This document shows positions 10,365 through 17,063 of a stretch of 64,000 nucleotides of DNA, one piece after another (position 1 is the stretch's first letter; each line of letters starts with the position of its first letter). Both the position numbers and the translations under genes were made by a program. The DNA lies in assembly GCF_003312875.1 (NCBI RefSeq), contig NZ_CP015163.1:2418001-2482000 (forward strand), in the 5' to 3' direction. Under the pieces are notes generated by a model. It was not told the DNA's origin. It searched no databases and saw only the letters and a program-made list of their open reading frames with translations. Source of the stretch: Amycolatopsis albispora. Its GTDB lineage: Bacteria; Actinomycetota; Actinomycetes; Mycobacteriales; Pseudonocardiaceae.

Positions 10365-11567
10365 GTGCCCGTCCCCCGCCCCGCGACCACCGGGCTGGCG
10401 CTGGTCGTTCTCGCCTCGCTCGCCGTGCACCTGGTCACCTTCCTGATCCGGCCGGTGGCCTCCTACCGGGTGCTCGCGCTCGGCGGTGACGCCACCGCGG
10501 TCGGGCTGGTGGCCGCGGCGGGCGCGCTGCTGCCGGTGTTCCTGGCGCTGCCGATGGGCCGGGCCGCCGATCGCGGCGGCATGGGCGGGCTGCTCACCGC
10601 GGGCGGGCTGGCCATGACCACCGGCGCGCTCGGCCTCGCCTTCGCCGGCACGCTGCCGCTGATGGCCGCCGGGAACGTGGTGATCGGGGTCGGGCAGCTC
10701 GCGCTGATGCTGGCCTTCCAGGGCCTGGTCGCCGAGCTTTCCCCGCCGGAGCACCAGGACCGCAACTTCGGCTGGTTCACCGCGGCGGCCTCGGTGGGCC
10801 AGCTGATCGGCCCGCTCACCGGTGGCTGGGTGATCAGCTCGGCGTCAGCGGGCTCGATGGTCGCCGAGACACGCGAGGCATTCCTGCTCGCCACCGGCCT
10901 CGGTGTGGTGATCACCCTGCTCTGCCTCGCGCTGGCGTGGACGCTGAAAGGCTTGGCGCACCAGAAGAAGAACGGCGACCGGAGAGTCCACAAGGGATCG
11001 ACGGCGGCCCTGCTGCGCAATCGCAGGCTGCTGGTGGCGATCTTCACCAGCTTCGCCGTGATGTCCAGTGTGGACGTTCTCACCGCGTACCTTCCGGTGC
11101 TGGGCGAGGATCGCGGGCTCAGCCCGGCCGTGGTCGGTGTGCTGCTGGCGGTGCGCGCCGGGTTCTCCTTCCTGTCCCGGCTGCTGATCCCGCTGCTGGT
11201 GGGCCGGTTCGGCAGGCTCGCGGTGCTGGTGGTCAGCGGCGGGCTGGCCGGGATCTGCGTGGTGGCACTGGTTTTCACCGGCGGCTTCTGGCCGCTGGCC
11301 GCGCTGATGGCGGTGCTCGGCCTGGCACTCGGGCTCGGTCAGCCGCTGACCATGACCTGGACCGTGCGCGAGGCGCCGGACAACCTGCGCTCCACCGCGC
11401 TCGGCCTGCGGCTGACCGGCAACCGGGTGGCGCAGGCGGCGGCCCCGGCCGCGGCGGGCGCGGTGTCCGGGCTGGTCGGCGTGGCCGGGCCGTTCCTGCT
11501 GATCGCGCTGCTGCTGTTCGCCTCCACGGCCACCGTGTTACCCGGCTGGCGCGCCGAGCGGGGCTGA
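10365..11567 (+). CDS. MFS transporter
   Basis: A 400-residue major facilitator with 11-12 membrane helices and a cytosolic loop at about residues 195-215 (HQKKNGDRRVHKGS). The loop-2 motif is present as MGRAADRGGMGGLL. It resembles small drug or metabolite exporters; the substrate is unknown. GTG start. It is divergent from the aldo/keto reductase-like gene, and its last 30 bases overlap the end of the convergent MmyB-type regulator, so the two mRNAs have complementary 3' ends. Confidence 0.8.
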   Translation: MPVPRPATTGLALVVLASLAVHLVTFLIRPVASYRVLALGGDATAVGLVAAAGALLPVFLALPMGRAADRGGMGGLLTAGGLAMTTGALGLAFAGTLPLMAAGNVVIGVGQLALMLAFQGLVAELSPPEHQDRNFGWFTAAASVGQLIGPLTGGWVISSASAGSMVAETREAFLLATGLGVVITLLCLALAWTLKGLAHQKKNGDRRVHKGSTAALLRNRRLLVAIFTSFAVMSSVDVLTAYLPVLGEDRGLSPAVVGVLLAVRAGFSFLSRLLIPLLVGRFGRLAVLVVSGGLAGICVVALVFTGGFWPLAALMAVLGLALGLGQPLTMTWTVREAPDNLRSTALGLRLTGNRVAQAAAPAAAGAVSGLVGVAGPFLLIALLLFASTATVLPGWRAERG

Positions 11568-12350
11568 CCGGAGCACCTCGGCGGTGTGCGCGTCCGCCGG
11601 GAAGAACGCCTCGATCGACAACTCGGCGAGCGTCACGTCCAGCGGCGTGCCGAAGGTCGCCACCGTGCTGAGGAAGGCCAGTTCGGTGTCGCCGTGCCGC
11701 AGCCGCAGCGGCACCACGAGGTCACCCGGCTTCGGCACCTCGACCTCGGGAACCACGTCGTGGCAAGGATATTCGCGCAGTTCGGCGAGCAGTTCGGACA
11801 GTTCGGGGTCGGCCGTGGCGGCCACCTCGCGCCGCAGCCTGCCGAGCAGGTGCGCGCGCCACTCCCCCAGGTTCGCGATGCGCGGTGCCATGCCGTCCGG
11901 GTGCAGCGTCGCCCGCAGCACGTTCACCGGGCCGTCCAGCAGTTCCGGCGCCACCCCGGCGATCAGCAGCGCCACGCTGGCGTTGGCGTCGACCATGGTC
12001 CAGCGCCGGTCGACGACCACCGCCGGATAGGGCTCGTGCGCGGTGAGCAGCCGCCGGACCGCCTCGCGCGCGGCGGTCATCTCGGGCGCGTCGAGCCCGC
12101 TTTCCGAGTACACCGGGGCGAATCCGGCGGCGAGCAGCAGCTGGTTGCGTTCACGCAGCGGTACGTCGAGGTGCTCACCGAGGCGGAGCACCATGTCGCG
12201 GCTGGGCGCCGAGCGCCCGGTCTCGACGAAGCTCAGGTGGCGTGTGGAGATGTCCGCCGAGATGGCCAGGTCGAGCTGGCTGATCCGGCGCCGGTCCCGC
12301 CATTCACGCAGGAGTTCGCCCACCGGGCGGGAAGCAGTCGCTGTGGTCAC
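11538..12350 (-). CDS. Helix-turn-helix regulator, MmyB-like
   Basis: A 270-residue regulator with an XRE-type helix-turn-helix (about residues 10-65: LLREWRDRRRISQLDLAISA, STRHLSFVETGRSAPSRDMV). It is followed by the MmyB-like ligand-binding PAS-type domain (about 105-265), with the family signatures YPAVVVDRRWTMVDAN, LRHGDTELAFLSTVATFGTP and ELSIEAFFPAD. Such regulators are thought to sense small lipophilic ligands, sometimes acyl chains. Divergent from the SnoaL-like gene, with an operator-like palindrome between them, so it probably controls itself and that gene. Confidence 0.85.
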   Translation of the reverse strand: MTTATASRPVGELLREWRDRRRISQLDLAISADISTRHLSFVETGRSAPSRDMVLRLGEHLDVPLRERNQLLLAAGFAPVYSESGLDAPEMTAAREAVRRLLTAHEPYPAVVVDRRWTMVDANASVALLIAGVAPELLDGPVNVLRATLHPDGMAPRIANLGEWRAHLLGRLRREVAATADPELSELLAELREYPCHDVVPEVEVPKPGDLVVPLRLRHGDTELAFLSTVATFGTPLDVTLAELSIEAFFPADAHTAEVLRSAPLGAPAG

Positions 12351-12384
12351 GCTTCGACGTTACGGCCGGGCGCGCGCCGCGGCC

Positions 12385-12401
12385 ATTACTTCCCGGGTAA
12401 T
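12385..12401. promoter_or_regulatory. Candidate operator between MmyB-type and SnoaL genes
   Basis: ATTACTTCCCGGGTAAT has arms ATTAC/GTAAT around a CCCGGG-containing centre. It lies in the divergent gap between the regulator (start 12350) and the SnoaL-like gene (start 12457), 35 bases from the regulator's start codon. This is a good place for an autoregulatory site. Confidence 0.45.
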
Positions 12402-12456
12402 CGACGCGCCGCGCGGCGGCGGGAATGGTGGGTGCCAGCCAACCCGAGGAGTGATC

Positions 12457-12813
12457 ATGACCGACTTCACCGCACTCGCCGAGCGTTACCTCGCCGCCTG
12501 GAACGCCACCGGCACCGAGCGCCGCGCGCTGATCGAAGAGCTGTTCACCGAAGACGCGAGCTACACCGACCCGCTCGGCGCGGTGACCGGCTGGGACGAC
12601 ATCGAGAAGTTCTTCGCCGGCGCGGCCGAGCAGTTCGCCGGGCTGCGGTTCACCCTGCACGGGCCGGTGGACGGCCACCACGACATCGCCCGGTTCACCT
12701 GGCACCTCGGCCCCGAGGGCGGGGAACCGCTGGTGATCGGGTTCGACGTGCTGGTGGCCGAAAACGACCGGATCGCCCGCGTGCACGGCTTCCTGGACAA
12801 GGTGCCGGGCTGA
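12457..12813 (+). CDS. SnoaL/NTF2-like protein
   Basis: A 118-residue protein with the NTF2-like alpha+beta cone fold: N-terminal helix RYLAAWNATG, then LFTEDASYTDPLG, the central GWDDIEKFFAGAAEQF, and strands RFTLHGPVDGHHDIARFTWHL and GFDVLVAENDRIARVHGF. Members include isomerases, cyclases and many small-molecule-binding proteins; the substrate cannot be told from sequence. ATG start with a strong GAGGAG six bases upstream. Its 3' end faces the 3' end of the minus-strand glycine riboswitch, so riboswitch read-through would be antisense to it. Confidence 0.8.
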   Translation: MTDFTALAERYLAAWNATGTERRALIEELFTEDASYTDPLGAVTGWDDIEKFFAGAAEQFAGLRFTLHGPVDGHHDIARFTWHLGPEGGEPLVIGFDVLVAENDRIARVHGFLDKVPG

Positions 12814-12830
12814 GCGCGCACGGGCGGGGA

Positions 12831-13050
12831 TGGAGCCTCCCCCTCTGTCCCTGCCCGGTTCCGGGCGCCTGAGAGGTTCACCCGCGAGTCCACGGGCTTG
12901 CACCTTCGGCGGGGCCGCGCGGTGAGTGGCCGCCGGCCCGCTTTCCAGAGGCGTCTCCCCATGCGCGGTCCTGGGTGCCTGAGAGTTTCCGGGGAGGAGT
13001 TGCTCCTTCGGCGCCGGGCGAGGCGATTGGCCGCCCGGTCTCTCCCGCGC
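12831..13050 (-). ncRNA. Tandem glycine riboswitch, no gene behind it
   Basis: Read on the minus strand, two aptamers are clear. Aptamer 1 runs from about 13050: GCGGGAGAGACC, then GCCGAAGGAGCAACTC, then AACTCTCAGGCACC. A short linker follows. Aptamer 2 begins CCTCTGGAAAGCGG, continues CCGCCGAAGGTGCAAGC and CCTCTCAGGCGCC, and closes with CAGAGGGGGAGG, whose CAGAGG pairs with the CCTCTG. These are the conserved blocks of the cooperative glycine riboswitch. It lies just downstream of a minus-strand MerR gene. The next sequence on the minus strand is antisense to the SnoaL-like gene, and the nearest minus-strand CDS starts about 480 bases away (the MmyB-type regulator at 12350). The usual gcv target is absent. 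Confidence 0.92.
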
Positions 13051-13099
13051 TGGGTCAACGACTACGGCGCAGAGATTAGCAACTCACCCACCGCGGCGA

Positions 13100-13666
13100 T
13101 CAACCGGTCCGGCGGGCGTTGCGCCGCTGGGTCAGCTCGTCCGGCTGGACCGTCTCGATCACGCCGCCGTCGGCCCGTTCGGCCGGGAACTCGTGGATGG
13201 TGCCGCTGATCTCCTGCATGGCGCCGCTGACCGCGATGCCGAACACGCCCTGCCCGCCCTGCAGTAAATCGACGATCTCCTCGGGCGAGGTGCACTCGTA
13301 GACGGTGGTGCCGTCGGAGAACAAGGTCACCTTCGCCAGGTCACGGACGCCGCGTTCACGCAGGTGCTCCACCGCGACCCGGATGTTCTGCAGCGAGACG
13401 CCGGTGTCCAGCAGCCGCTTGACGATCTTGAGGACCAGGATGTCCTTGAACGAGTACAGCCGCTGCGAGCCGGAGCCGTGCGCGGTGCGGATGCTCGGCG
13501 CGACCAGCTTCGTCCTGGCCCAGTAGTCCAGCTGGCGATAGGTGATGCCGGCGATCTGGCAGGCCGCGGGCCCGCGGTAGCCGACCAGTTCGTCGGGCAG
13601 GGACGCGTCGGGAAAGAGCTCACCTTGCTCGCCGTCGGTCACCTCGAACGACCTTCCCTCGACCAC
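13100..13666 (-). CDS. MerR-family regulator (Rv1830-like)
   Basis: A 188-residue MerR-type regulator. I use the GTG at 13666 (MVEGRSF), with GGGGAGG five bases upstream; a longer frame continues upstream but is less well supported. The winged helix lies at about residues 25-95 (GYRGPAACQIAGITYRQLDY, then WARTKLVAPSIR, SQRLYSFKDILVLKIVKRL), followed by a dimerisation helix and a C-terminal part (VYECTSPEEIVDLLQGGQG). The match and position fit Rv1830 of mycobacteria, which lies between the bifunctional nuclease and gcvP. Here a TetR gene intervenes on one side, and a riboswitch without gcvP follows on the other. Confidence 0.85.
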   Translation of the reverse strand: MVEGRSFEVTDGEQGELFPDASLPDELVGYRGPAACQIAGITYRQLDYWARTKLVAPSIRTAHGSGSQRLYSFKDILVLKIVKRLLDTGVSLQNIRVAVEHLRERGVRDLAKVTLFSDGTTVYECTSPEEIVDLLQGGQGVFGIAVSGAMQEISGTIHEFPAERADGGVIETVQPDELTQRRNARRTG

Positions 13667-13821
13667 CCATGCCTCCCCTCGCCCGGCCGTTGCGGGCCGG
13701 CAAACATGACCTGGTGGATCACTTGCCTCGAACGGCGTAATCACACCGTCGCGATTCACCTGTAGTTGACGGTAAGCCGGGCCGGGGAGCCGGTCAACGC
13801 GACGCGCGGCCGGTCCGGCCA

Positions 13822-13868
13822 AAGGTTGAACCTTGCCCGATTTACTCAGCCGTGTTAATTTTTACTCA
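13822..13868. promoter_or_regulatory. Palindrome and direct repeat upstream of TetR
   Basis: AAGGTTGAACCTT (13822-13834) has perfect 6-base arms. TTTACTCA occurs at 13841-13848 and again at 13861-13868, 20 bases apart, the second copy running into the ATG at 13868. No ribosome-binding site precedes that ATG, so the TetR mRNA may be leaderless, with the promoter and operator packed into this stretch. Confidence 0.4.
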
Positions 13869-14629: not shown

Positions 14630-15103
14630 CTATGTATCCGCGCCTCGGAAGTCTTCGGGGGAGACGGAGTCGAGGAACTCGCGGAACTTCTCCACCTCGT
14701 CCTCCTGCTCGTCGGGGATGATCAGCCCGGCCTCCTCCAGCACCGCGTCCTCGGCGTGGATCGGCACCCCGACGCGCAGCGCCAGTGCCACCGAGTCGCT
14801 GGGCCTGGCCGACACGCGGATGTCGCCGTCGAAGACGAGTTCGGCGAAGAAGGTGCCTTCGCGCAGGTCGGTGATGACCACCTGCTCAAGTTCCCGGCCG
14901 AGGGCGCCGATGACCTCTTTGAGGAGGTCGTGGGTCAGTGGCCGGGCCGGGCGCACACCCTGTTGCTCCAGGGCGATGGCGGTGGCCTCGACCGAGCCGA
15001 TCCAGATCGGCAGGTACCGCTCTCCTTCGGTCTCCCGCAGCAACAAGATCGGCTGGTTCGCGGGCAGTTCGACCCGCACGCCGACGACGCGCATCTCGCT
15101 CAT
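14630..15103 (-). CDS. Bifunctional nuclease family protein (Rv1829-like)
   Basis: A 157-residue DUF151/bifunctional nuclease domain protein. Start is ATG at 15103 (MSEMRVVGVRVE), with GGGAGG eight bases upstream. The conserved core is LPIWIGSVEATAIALEQQG, then THDLLKEVIGALG, and the substrate loop ISARPSDSVALALR-like (VSARPSDSVALALRVGVPI). An acidic C-terminal tail (EQEDEVEKFREFLDSVSPED) is typical of actinobacterial members. The plant and bacterial founders have nuclease activity, but the role in actinobacteria is unclear. Usually placed between ftsR and the second MerR gene, as here apart from the inserted TetR. Confidence 0.85.
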   Translation of the reverse strand: MSEMRVVGVRVELPANQPILLLRETEGERYLPIWIGSVEATAIALEQQGVRPARPLTHDLLKEVIGALGRELEQVVITDLREGTFFAELVFDGDIRVSARPSDSVALALRVGVPIHAEDAVLEEAGLIIPDEQEDEVEKFREFLDSVSPEDFRGADT

Positions 15104-15348
15104 CGGGTTCGCCTCCCTAACCTGCACACGGGCCGCACGCTGTGCCAAGGGTCCCGCATCGCCACCCTCGACGCTACCCGTCTTCCGGACGCTGTGCTCG
15201 CTCTACCTTCGCGCCCGCCTCGCGGGCTTCTCCAACCGTACGGCATCGGGGTCCCCGCGTTCAGCCACGGATTCGGCGCCGGGCCGTCCGGGCACCTCCG
15301 CACGACGCTCAACGCGACCCGGGACAAGATCATTCCCGCCGGTCCGGG

Positions 15349-16098
15349 CTAACCGCCGGTCACCCCGCGGATACCCGCTTTGACCAGCAGGGTGTGCAGC
15401 GTGACCGACAGCGCCGCCAGCTCGCGGACCACCTCGTCGGCCCGCGCCTTCGCGGCCGCGTCGCGCTGCCGGTAGACCGGCGTAACAATTTGCTCCAGGA
15501 GGCCGACCTCCCGGTCCGCGGACGCCCGGAACGCCCTCAGGTGCCGGGGTTCGATGCCGTACTCGGTCATCGCCCGCACCGTTTTCGCCACCAGCACGGC
15601 ATCCGGGTCGTAGAAGCCAGCCGCACCGGGCCGGACCAGGCCGTACTGCTGGAGCTCGGCCAGCGTGGCGGCGTCGATCCCGGACTGCGCGAGCAGTTCC
15701 TCCTGGGTCAGCCGCACCGGGCGCGCCGGGGCGAAGTCCTCCGGCGACGGCAGCCCGCGCTCGCCGCCCGGCCCGCCGAGCGAGACGAGCTTGCGCGGCG
15801 GCCGCGGCGCCGGCCCCGGCAGCTCGGCACCGCGGTCGGCGGCGTCGAGCTGCTCCTTGATCACCTTCAGCGGCAGGTAGTGGTCACGCTGCGCGGACAG
15901 CACGAAGCGCAGCCGCTCCACGTCCGCCGCGGCGAACTGCCGGTAACCGGACGGCGTCCGGCCGGGCTGCACCAGCCCCTCCGACTCGAGGAACCGGATC
16001 TTGGAGATGGTCACATCGGGGAAGTCACCGCGCAGCTGCGCCAGCACCGCCCCGATGCTCAGACCGTCTGGACGGCCCTGCCGCCCGGCAGCCGTCAC
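15349..16098 (-). CDS. ftsR: MerR-type transcriptional regulator FtsR
   Basis: A 249-residue regulator with a MerR-like winged helix at about residues 12-85 (LSIGAVLAQLRGDFPDVTIS, then KIRFLESEGLVQPGRTPSGY), a Pro-rich linker (about 90-125) and a second helical domain (about 125-245). It matches FtsR of corynebacteria and Rv1828 of mycobacteria, regulators linked to cell-division gene ftsZ. The GTG start overlaps the stop of garA (GTGA), so the two are translationally coupled. The order gcvH-garA-ftsR is the normal one. Confidence 0.9.
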   Translation of the reverse strand: MTAAGRQGRPDGLSIGAVLAQLRGDFPDVTISKIRFLESEGLVQPGRTPSGYRQFAAADVERLRFVLSAQRDHYLPLKVIKEQLDAADRGAELPGPAPRPPRKLVSLGGPGGERGLPSPEDFAPARPVRLTQEELLAQSGIDAATLAELQQYGLVRPGAAGFYDPDAVLVAKTVRAMTEYGIEPRHLRAFRASADREVGLLEQIVTPVYRQRDAAAKARADEVVRELAALSVTLHTLLVKAGIRGVTGG

Positions 16099-16559
16099 CG
16101 CGCCCCCTGGCCCCCGTGCCCCGGGCCGGTCAGGAAGACGAGGCGGAACTTGCCGATCTGGACCTCGTCGCCCCCGGCGAGCACGGCCTGGTCGACCGGC
16201 TCACGGTTGACGTAGGTGCCGTTGAGGCTGCCCACGTCGATCACCACGAACTCCCCGCCCTCGCGGCGGAACTCGGCGTGCCGCCGCGAAACCGTGACGT
16301 CGTCGAGGAAGATGTCGCTGTCGGGGTGGCGGCCGGCGCTGGTGGTGTCGCGGTCCAGCAGGAAGCGCGAGCCCGCGTTCGGGCCGCGCTTGACGACCAG
16401 CAGGGCCGAACCGGCCGGCAGTGCGTCGATGCCCGCGACCGGGGGCTCCGGCGCCTGGGCTTCCTGTCCCTCGACCTCGGCGAGGAAGTCGGCCCGGAAG
16501 ACGGAGGTCCGCTCCGGAGACTGCTCCGGGGGAACGCCGGGCCCGTCGTTCGTGCTCAC
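16095..16559 (-). CDS. garA: FHA-domain regulator GarA (OdhI)
   Basis: A 154-residue protein. A short N-terminal tail precedes an FHA domain (about 53-145) with the family's near-invariant blocks GSALLVVKRGPNAGSRFLLD, SAGRHPDSDIFLDDVTVSRR and DVGSLNGTYVNREPVD. GarA/OdhI binds and inhibits 2-oxoglutarate dehydrogenase and modulates glutamate metabolism when its tail is unphosphorylated. The tail motif, ETTS in mycobacteria, reads E16-R17-T18-S19 here. The first Thr, the PknG site in mycobacteria, is Arg; the second, the PknB site, is kept. Coupled to ftsR downstream. Confidence 0.93.
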   Translation of the reverse strand: MSTNDGPGVPPEQSPERTSVFRADFLAEVEGQEAQAPEPPVAGIDALPAGSALLVVKRGPNAGSRFLLDRDTTSAGRHPDSDIFLDDVTVSRRHAEFRREGGEFVVIDVGSLNGTYVNREPVDQAVLAGGDEVQIGKFRLVFLTGPGHGGQGAR

Positions 16560-16679: not shown

Positions 16680-17063
16680 TCAGCCGTTGGTCAGGCGCTG
16701 GTAGGCGTCGGCGTCGAGCAGGCTGTCCGGGGTGGCCGAACCGCTCAGCTTGAGCTCGATCAGCCAGCCCTCGCCGTAGGGGTCGCTGTTGATCAGCTCG
16801 GGCGAGTCGGCCACCGCGTCGTTGACCGCGACCACCTCACCGTCCAGCGGGGCGAACAGCTCGGACACGCTCTTGGTGGATTCGACCTCGCCGAAGGTCT
16901 CCCCCGCGGTCACCGTCAGCCCGACCTCGGGCAGGTCCACGAAAACCACGTCGCCGAGCTGGTCCTGGGCGTACTCGGTGATACCGACGCGCACCGACTC
17001 CCCGTCGCGCACGGCCACCCACTCGTGCTCCTCGGTGTAGCGCAGTTCCTCCGGAGTGGACAA
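16680..17063 (-). CDS. gcvH: Glycine cleavage system H protein
   Basis: A 127-residue lipoyl carrier that shuttles the aminomethyl group between the P, T and L proteins of the glycine cleavage system. The lipoylated Lys is K64 in GEVESTKSVSELFAP; the N-terminal EELRYTEEHEWV and the GDVVFVDLPEVG strand are standard. Length is normal. It lies 120 bases upstream of garA on the same strand, as in mycobacteria. The P and T proteins are not in the window, and the glycine riboswitch 3.6 kb away has lost its expected gcvP. Confidence 0.95.
   Translation of the reverse strand: MSTPEELRYTEEHEWVAVRDGESVRVGITEYAQDQLGDVVFVDLPEVGLTVTAGETFGEVESTKSVSELFAPLDGEVVAVNDAVADSPELINSDPYGEGWLIELKLSGSATPDSLLDADAYQRLTNG

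Follow-up and report, generated by a model that had tools for sequence, protein, structure and literature searches.

A riboswitch is usually reported along with the gene under its control. Tandem glycine riboswitches (RF00504) lie before gcvP or gcvT, and those of Streptomyces precede gcvT-gcvH-glyA operons (PMC12452182). Riboswitches that reach beyond their own leader have been described in Listeria, where the terminated SAM riboswitches SreA and SreB act in trans on prfA mRNA (PMC8079631). The same article describes the Listeria B12 riboswitches AspocR and Rli55, which control non-coding RNAs of an antisense or a sequestering kind; AspocR governs an RNA antisense to pocR. Serrano-Gutierrez and Merino (2023; PMC9943018) catalogued 32 antisense-oriented glycine riboswitches as against 3,153 in sense orientation; with a P value of 0.74, the antisense class shows no excess. 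Neither Amycolatopsis nor Pseudonocardia appears in that article's main text.

The riboswitch studied here lies in a 64,000-nt stretch of the Amycolatopsis albispora genome (contig positions 2418001-2482000; the window). Both aptamers, the core and the promoter position are the same as in copies of this locus still linked to gcvP. Unlike the known gcvP and gcvT riboswitches, however, it is an orphan without a downstream glycine gene: the controlled gene is deleted, and the element has survived it in many species and over long divergence. The short, terminated RNA that we propose for the orphan resembles SreA (229 nt), but SreA still controls its own downstream operon, whereas the Amycolatopsis element has none and its action in trans is a proposal only (PMC8079631). 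With AspocR and Rli55 it would share a position before non-coding or antisense RNA instead of a coding gene, although an informal look past the orphan revealed no conserved long RNA or protein-binding element, and ligand and phylum differ (PMC8079631). The geometry of AspocR, a riboswitch at the 3′ end of a gene and directed against it, fits 23 of 26 orphans (all except those in G005, G027 and G036). The window locus would also fit the geometry of the antisense catalogue in PMC9943018, yet here the orientation is inherited from a gcvP deletion and does not occur in every orphan. Among the open-licence papers listed under the terms searched, we found none on an orphan glycine riboswitch in Amycolatopsis.

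A complete tandem glycine riboswitch next to merR

The window riboswitch occupies positions 12835-13057 of the minus strand. Its adjacent aptamers 1 (12956..13057; RF00504, 60.8 bits, E 3.9e-10 in the 64-kb window) and 2 (12835..12958, contig 2430835-2430958; 38 bits) both exceed the RF00504 gathering score of 32 bits, which bears out the original prediction of a complete two-aptamer element; the cmscan output omits one overlapping same-clan match at this site. Alignment of the 26 orphan riboswitches revealed invariant or nearly invariant columns in the conserved core (GGGAGAG, CCGAAGG.GCAA and CTCTCAGG). Excess thermodynamic stability was looked for in the window RNA, whose fold proved not unusually stable (z –0.92). 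Elsewhere in the source genome, a 9.12-Mb single contig, there is one other glycine-riboswitch match, followed after 70 bases by the match to the sole gcvP, and the whole-genome search returned no third locus.

Profile matches place gcvH (16680..17063; PF01597, 147 bits), garA/odhI (16095..16559; NF041660, 227 bits), ftsR (15349..16098; NF050798, 295 bits), a bifunctional nuclease-domain gene (14630..15148; PF02577) and a MerR-family regulator (13100..13822; PF13411) in this order on the minus strand, as had been predicted. The last of these, hereafter merR, is present in all 80 genomes of the genus sample, and the riboswitch starts ~43 nt past its end in the window. We take the nuclease gene to be Rv1829-like and the MerR gene Rv1830-like, using the Rv numbers of the original prediction.

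Directly downstream, no gene follows on the same strand, again as predicted. The next gene is a convergent SnoaL-like gene (12457..12813, plus strand; PF12680), which ends ~20 bases past the aptamer-2 match. Beyond it, ~485 bases downstream, starts a gene for an MmyB-type regulator (11538..12350, minus strand; PF17765), whose sequence has its own TAACGT box just before the GTG start. A same-strand gene that could be regulated in cis is therefore missing from the position just downstream in the window and in the 23 of 26 orphans where SnoaL is convergent. The three orphans without SnoaL as their neighbour have MmyB (G027, G036) or an unrelated same-strand gene (G005) next to the riboswitch, and the 26 share no same-strand downstream neighbour.

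Deletion of the local gcvP

Across the genus sample, gcvP starts no more than 1 kb from merR, in the same orientation and just past the riboswitch, in 52 of 80 genomes, including G025, where a contig end cuts the gene. It is absent from the merR locus in 27; in the remaining genome, G043, merR and a second gcvP are on different contigs, making this probably the 53rd linked genome. A second gcvP thus occurs in 53 of the 80 genomes, 52 times at the merR locus. By coordinates, all 80 also carry a gcvP closely before gcvT on the same strand. The source genome's only gcvP belongs to this operon (4156920-4159703, minus strand, followed by gcvT at 4155806-4156882), and the second riboswitch match precedes it. 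The remaining operon gcvP is of a second type, which in the relatives compared shares ~64–72% identity with the gcvP of the merR locus. Among the matches listed, a riboswitch lies at most 700 nt upstream of the operon gcvP in at least 74 of the 80 genomes, a count that leaves out G011, G015, G017 and G045; sequence inspection established it in two more genomes, G020 and G021. Because the gcvP-gcvT operon is present in 80/80 genomes, the local gcvP looks redundant.

In many linked relatives the SnoaL-like gene lies just past gcvP. The order in A. roodepoortensis (L067) is merR, riboswitch, gcvP, convergent SnoaL and MmyB; the window layout differs from it by the absence of gcvP. On our tree, built from FtsR, nuclease and MerR codons of 91 taxa (all 80 genus genomes plus 11 of 80 named loci), each of the eight outgroup loci has gcvP at merR. 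Assuming no regain, the tree implies seven gcvP losses, a number that is only approximate because several deeper nodes have support of 70–85 and those around G005 of 23–40. The largest gcvP-less clade comprises 17 genomes (support 96), 15 of them with a complete riboswitch.

On this comparative evidence, the local gcvP has been deleted and its riboswitch left behind. Of the two fates that the original prediction had offered for the gene, loss is the one that stands, from gene order and tree; a move to 4.16 Mb is ruled out, as the copy there is of the gcvP-gcvT operon type found in 80/80 genomes. Misassembly is likewise rejected, since the same gcvP-less junction recurs in the single-contig genomes G026, G009 and G071 as well as in other assemblies. 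Nor did the other outcome that the original prediction had named against itself turn up, a riboswitch that never adjoined gcvP in relatives, as gcvP is in place at all eight outgroup loci. With linked, orphan and, in a few cases, decayed copies side by side in a single genus, the repeated losses form a natural experiment, which makes it testable whether riboswitches can become free regulatory RNAs.

Two kinds of irregularity were seen at loci around gcvP. The merR-locus gene is split into two frames in G030 (G030:C1:7999639-8002444) and G070 (G070:C1:3841854-3844632), from ongoing decay or sequencing errors. A hairpin-rich insert of >100 nt separates riboswitch and gcvP at L183 (G024) and L186 (G066); a similar element persists at L168 (G005) after gcvP loss, and such an insert could uncouple riboswitch and gene before deletion.

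Retention of the riboswitch after gcvP loss

A complete tandem riboswitch was kept in 24 of the 27 genus genomes without a local gcvP, among them all four of the window's own clade. The exceptions are G004 and G073, which have none, and G021, where only a damaged aptamer 1 is left: core bases are altered, aptamer 2 is gone and TGGACT stands in place of the relatives' –10 box. Outside the 80 genomes, the riboswitch is kept in A. thermalba (L068) and A. deserti (L071) and absent in Prauserella endophytica (L069).

Retention is less regular in the wider family. Among 70 family genomes, 67 of them outside the genus, gcvP near merR was absent from 11 of these 67, whereby those with gcvP at a distance of 14 kb (G137) or 1.4–2.5 kb (five genomes) were counted as still linked. 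Three of the 11 (G088, G104, G141) carry a riboswitch right after merR, as confirmed by sequence; the other eight gave no riboswitch match beside merR under the stricter filters of the large search, which can miss weak matches. The reverse case also occurs: in G135 (G135:C56:179551-183225) gcvP lies 121 nt past merR and the sole riboswitch match is elsewhere, and G081 (G081:C12) and G126 (G126:C97) have gcvP beside merR and no riboswitch match at all. Given the extra-genus losses and these reverse cases, retention is a feature of the genus more than a rule. A further locus, L290 (G131:C11:726500-731500), has two glycine-riboswitch matches adjoining neither merR nor gcvP.

Purifying selection on orphan riboswitches

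Evolutionary rates were expressed as riboswitch tree length divided by third-codon tree length, with the species tree as fixed topology and 30 bootstraps. The ratio was 0.234 (0.182–0.332) in the clade with 15 orphans and 0.122 (0.058–0.149) in the window's orphan clade, compared to 0.508 (0.364–0.908) and 0.591 (0.411–0.733) in two linked clades of 19 and 27 genomes. Plain pairwise-distance ratios were 0.30 and 0.15 for the same two orphan groups and 0.34 and 0.39 for the linked ones. Two smaller sets of more diverged orphans, which lie outside the tree-length comparison, exceeded these linked values: G027, G036, G058 and G072 (mixed, not a clade) with a pairwise ratio of 0.50, and G072, L068 and L071 (three members only) with 0.46.

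The non-coding surroundings of the riboswitch diverge faster. Among the 15 orphans, whose clade differs at 22% of third codon positions on average, the mean pairwise distance was 0.061 for the riboswitch, whereas the FtsR-nuclease spacer reached 0.183 and the 400-base stretch past the nuclease gene 0.188. The window's clade gave 0.021 versus 0.092 and 0.155 for neighbouring non-coding sequence, while the contrast was smaller for the closest eight orphans (0.021 versus 0.039 and 0.073).

Base pairing is preserved as well. Over all 59 predicted pairs, 877 of 885 cells were standard in the 15-orphan clade, with both-sided change, dating from after the gcvP loss, in five pairs, four of them in the two P2 stems; this count replaces an earlier one on a hand-picked subset of 47 of the 59 pairs (697/705 standard). 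All 26 orphans together gave 1506/1531 standard cells and both-sided change in 11 pairs. These counts come from related sequences and from a structure predicted on the same 26-orphan alignment, which favours its pairs.

At the sequence level, rates and covariation thus show that purifying selection has maintained the orphan, acting on both its RNA structure and its ligand-binding core. Such selection across a genus goes beyond the original prediction. That the riboswitch stays nearly unchanged in many Amycolatopsis species after gcvP deletion suggests that it now functions as an independent RNA.

Promoter box, tail and hairpin

Upstream of the riboswitch, conservation of a TANNNT motif points to a –10-like promoter box, TAATCT (13073..13078, minus strand), for its transcript. 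The motif stands at –29 or –30 from the GCGGGAGAG core in 26/26 orphans and somewhere between –50 and –25 in 61/61 linked loci, compared to a chance expectation of ~4.5% per locus. A pattern scan of the window found no full σ70 consensus promoter.

Past P1 of aptamer 2, the order is GACAGAG, one base or none, and then a GGGGAGG tail (12836..12842, minus strand), read by eye in 26/26 aligned orphans. The suggestion that GGGGGAGG had been the ribosome-binding site of the former gcvP is ruled out: it is this conserved riboswitch tail, which loci with a following gcvP have too. The gcvP start of the linked loci examined lies further downstream of the tail, mostly behind its own GGAGG-like site.

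The tail can form one side of a weak hairpin in the window (GGGGA/TCCCC, 12826..12842, minus strand; z 0.19), where many other orphans have a stronger one. Hairpins past the tail reached z < –1 in 17/26 orphans and 47/61 linked loci, but are weak in the window's clade (z 0.19, –1.10, –0.79 and 1.02). T-tailed hairpins directly past the tail occur in G046, G068 and G104 (the last by eye); most orphans have no T run. A pattern scan found no terminator in the window, and the hairpin scores likewise revealed no strong one there.

Complementarity between aptamer 1 and the tail

CCUCCCC on the 3′ side of aptamer-1 P3 (12991..12997, minus strand) is complementary to the tail at 12836-12842. A native arm-tail complement of at least 7 bases, G-U allowed, was present in 149 of the 150 tandem riboswitches that fit our search pattern (78/91 merR-locus sequences, 51/62 other named loci and 21/21 operon riboswitches). 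The G-rich and C-rich composition favours such complementarity. Changes are matched between riboswitch types: an ACUCCCC arm goes with a GGGGAGU tail in 20/21 operon riboswitches, and among the other named loci none of the 12 CCUCC-type arms is accompanied by a GGGAGAGG tail, while the 39 CCUCU-type arms occur with either kind.

Not all of the six partner exchanges shortened the mean match, making this control only partly supportive. Arms from merR loci matched their own tails over 9.30 bases, operon tails over 6.14 and named-loci tails over 7.11; operon arms gave 7.00, 5.51 with named-loci tails and an unchanged 7.07 with merR-locus tails; and named-loci arms gave 6.84, 6.06 with operon tails and a longer 8.61 with merR-locus tails (equal at 6.36 when only Watson-Crick pairs count). 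P3-tail pairing, which would form at the expense of aptamer-1 P3, is a candidate switch, for which we claim no novelty; with its matched changes, the complementarity may be a switch element common to the whole group and may show the switching mode of actinobacterial glycine riboswitches.

Possible roles of the orphan

What lies downstream differs between orphans, whereas the promoter box, the aptamers, the tail and, in many cases, a hairpin persist; the simplest reading is therefore a free-standing glycine-sensing RNA. As a whole, we consider it probable that an intact riboswitch, left by the gcvP deletion and retained by selection, now serves as such an RNA. By comparison among genomes, the local deletion left a complete tandem element behind, and losing the gene would have been tolerable with another gcvP in the gcvP-gcvT operon of every genome sampled from the genus; the redundancy of the two copies is presumed from this presence. 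The orphan, maintained as its rates and covariation indicate, would be transcribed from its own promoter as an RNA of ~230–300 nt, ending at the hairpin that follows GGGGAGG in many orphans. Glycine would then change the fold, setting aptamer-1 P3 against P3-tail pairing, and the RNA may act on other RNAs or by controlled read-through. More tentatively, and with rather more doubt than confidence, the freed riboswitch may be a selected, stand-alone metabolite-sensing RNA acting in trans, e.g. on the gcvP-gcvT leader, with which the orphan shares GGGGAG/CUCCCC complementarity. If true, old riboswitches could in this way give rise to new regulatory RNAs.

The original prediction had instead proposed a glycine-dependent antisense RNA or control of the distant MmyB-type gene; both come out weaker. 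In the antisense case, glycine would control read-through past the tail, and the longer RNA would run antisense to SnoaL and toward MmyB, comparable to AspocR and pocR. The convergent SnoaL of 23/26 orphans provides the layout, for which there is precedent (PMC8079631, PMC9943018). Yet the riboswitch is kept where SnoaL does not adjoin it (the next gene is MmyB in G027 and G036 and, in G005, an unrelated one on the same strand), and G021 and L069 kept SnoaL while the riboswitch was mostly or wholly lost. As SnoaL was convergent to gcvP already before the loss, the layout is inherited. We know of no metabolic link between glycine and SnoaL. Antisense control of SnoaL is thus possible and, with 3/26 orphans lacking that neighbour, not required; as the main role of the orphan we regard it as unlikely.

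Proximity to merR, ~43 nt in the window and adjoining in 24 genus orphans, would suit a 3′-end element instead: read-through mRNA from ftsR to merR would carry the riboswitch and be stabilised or ended by it, perhaps with glycine. We judge this improbable, given that all 87 of 87 loci have a promoter-like box upstream of the riboswitch, that the riboswitch lies ~1 kb from merR in Actinokineospora (L072) and three Lentzea loci (L075–L077), and that a plain terminator would not need a glycine-binding core.

Could the orphan simply be a leftover still to decay? Decay is real, as the damaged copy in G021, the empty loci in G073 and G004 and the 8/11 gcvP-less loci outside the genus without a riboswitch attest. 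The orphans, however, evolve more slowly than linked riboswitches and at about a third of the neighbouring non-coding distance, at 22% third-codon divergence; these rates, the preserved pairing and the contrast with G021 make a relic very unlikely.

Least probable by our estimate, and hardly credible, is a new leader that would control MmyB or a small open reading frame downstream on the same strand. This is in keeping with MmyB lying ~75 nt past the tail on the same strand in G027 and G036 but at odds with the TANCGT box of MmyB, close ahead of the GTG start in the window, in G027 and in G036, with the convergent next marker gene in 23/26 orphans, and with the 26 aligned sequences, in which no common start codon past the tail was seen by eye.

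Palindromes were observed on both sides of SnoaL. In the riboswitch-SnoaL spacer, GGTTCAGACC...GGTCTGAACC and TGTGGTCAAGACCACA occur at L162 and related loci (G015, G032, G045, G048, G071 and others), with several related copies in G046 and G068; these resemble operators of a GntR-type regulator or terminators for convergent genes. Between the divergent SnoaL and MmyB genes of the window (12350-12457), the near-palindrome ATTACCCGGGAAGTAAT is likely the MmyB operator.
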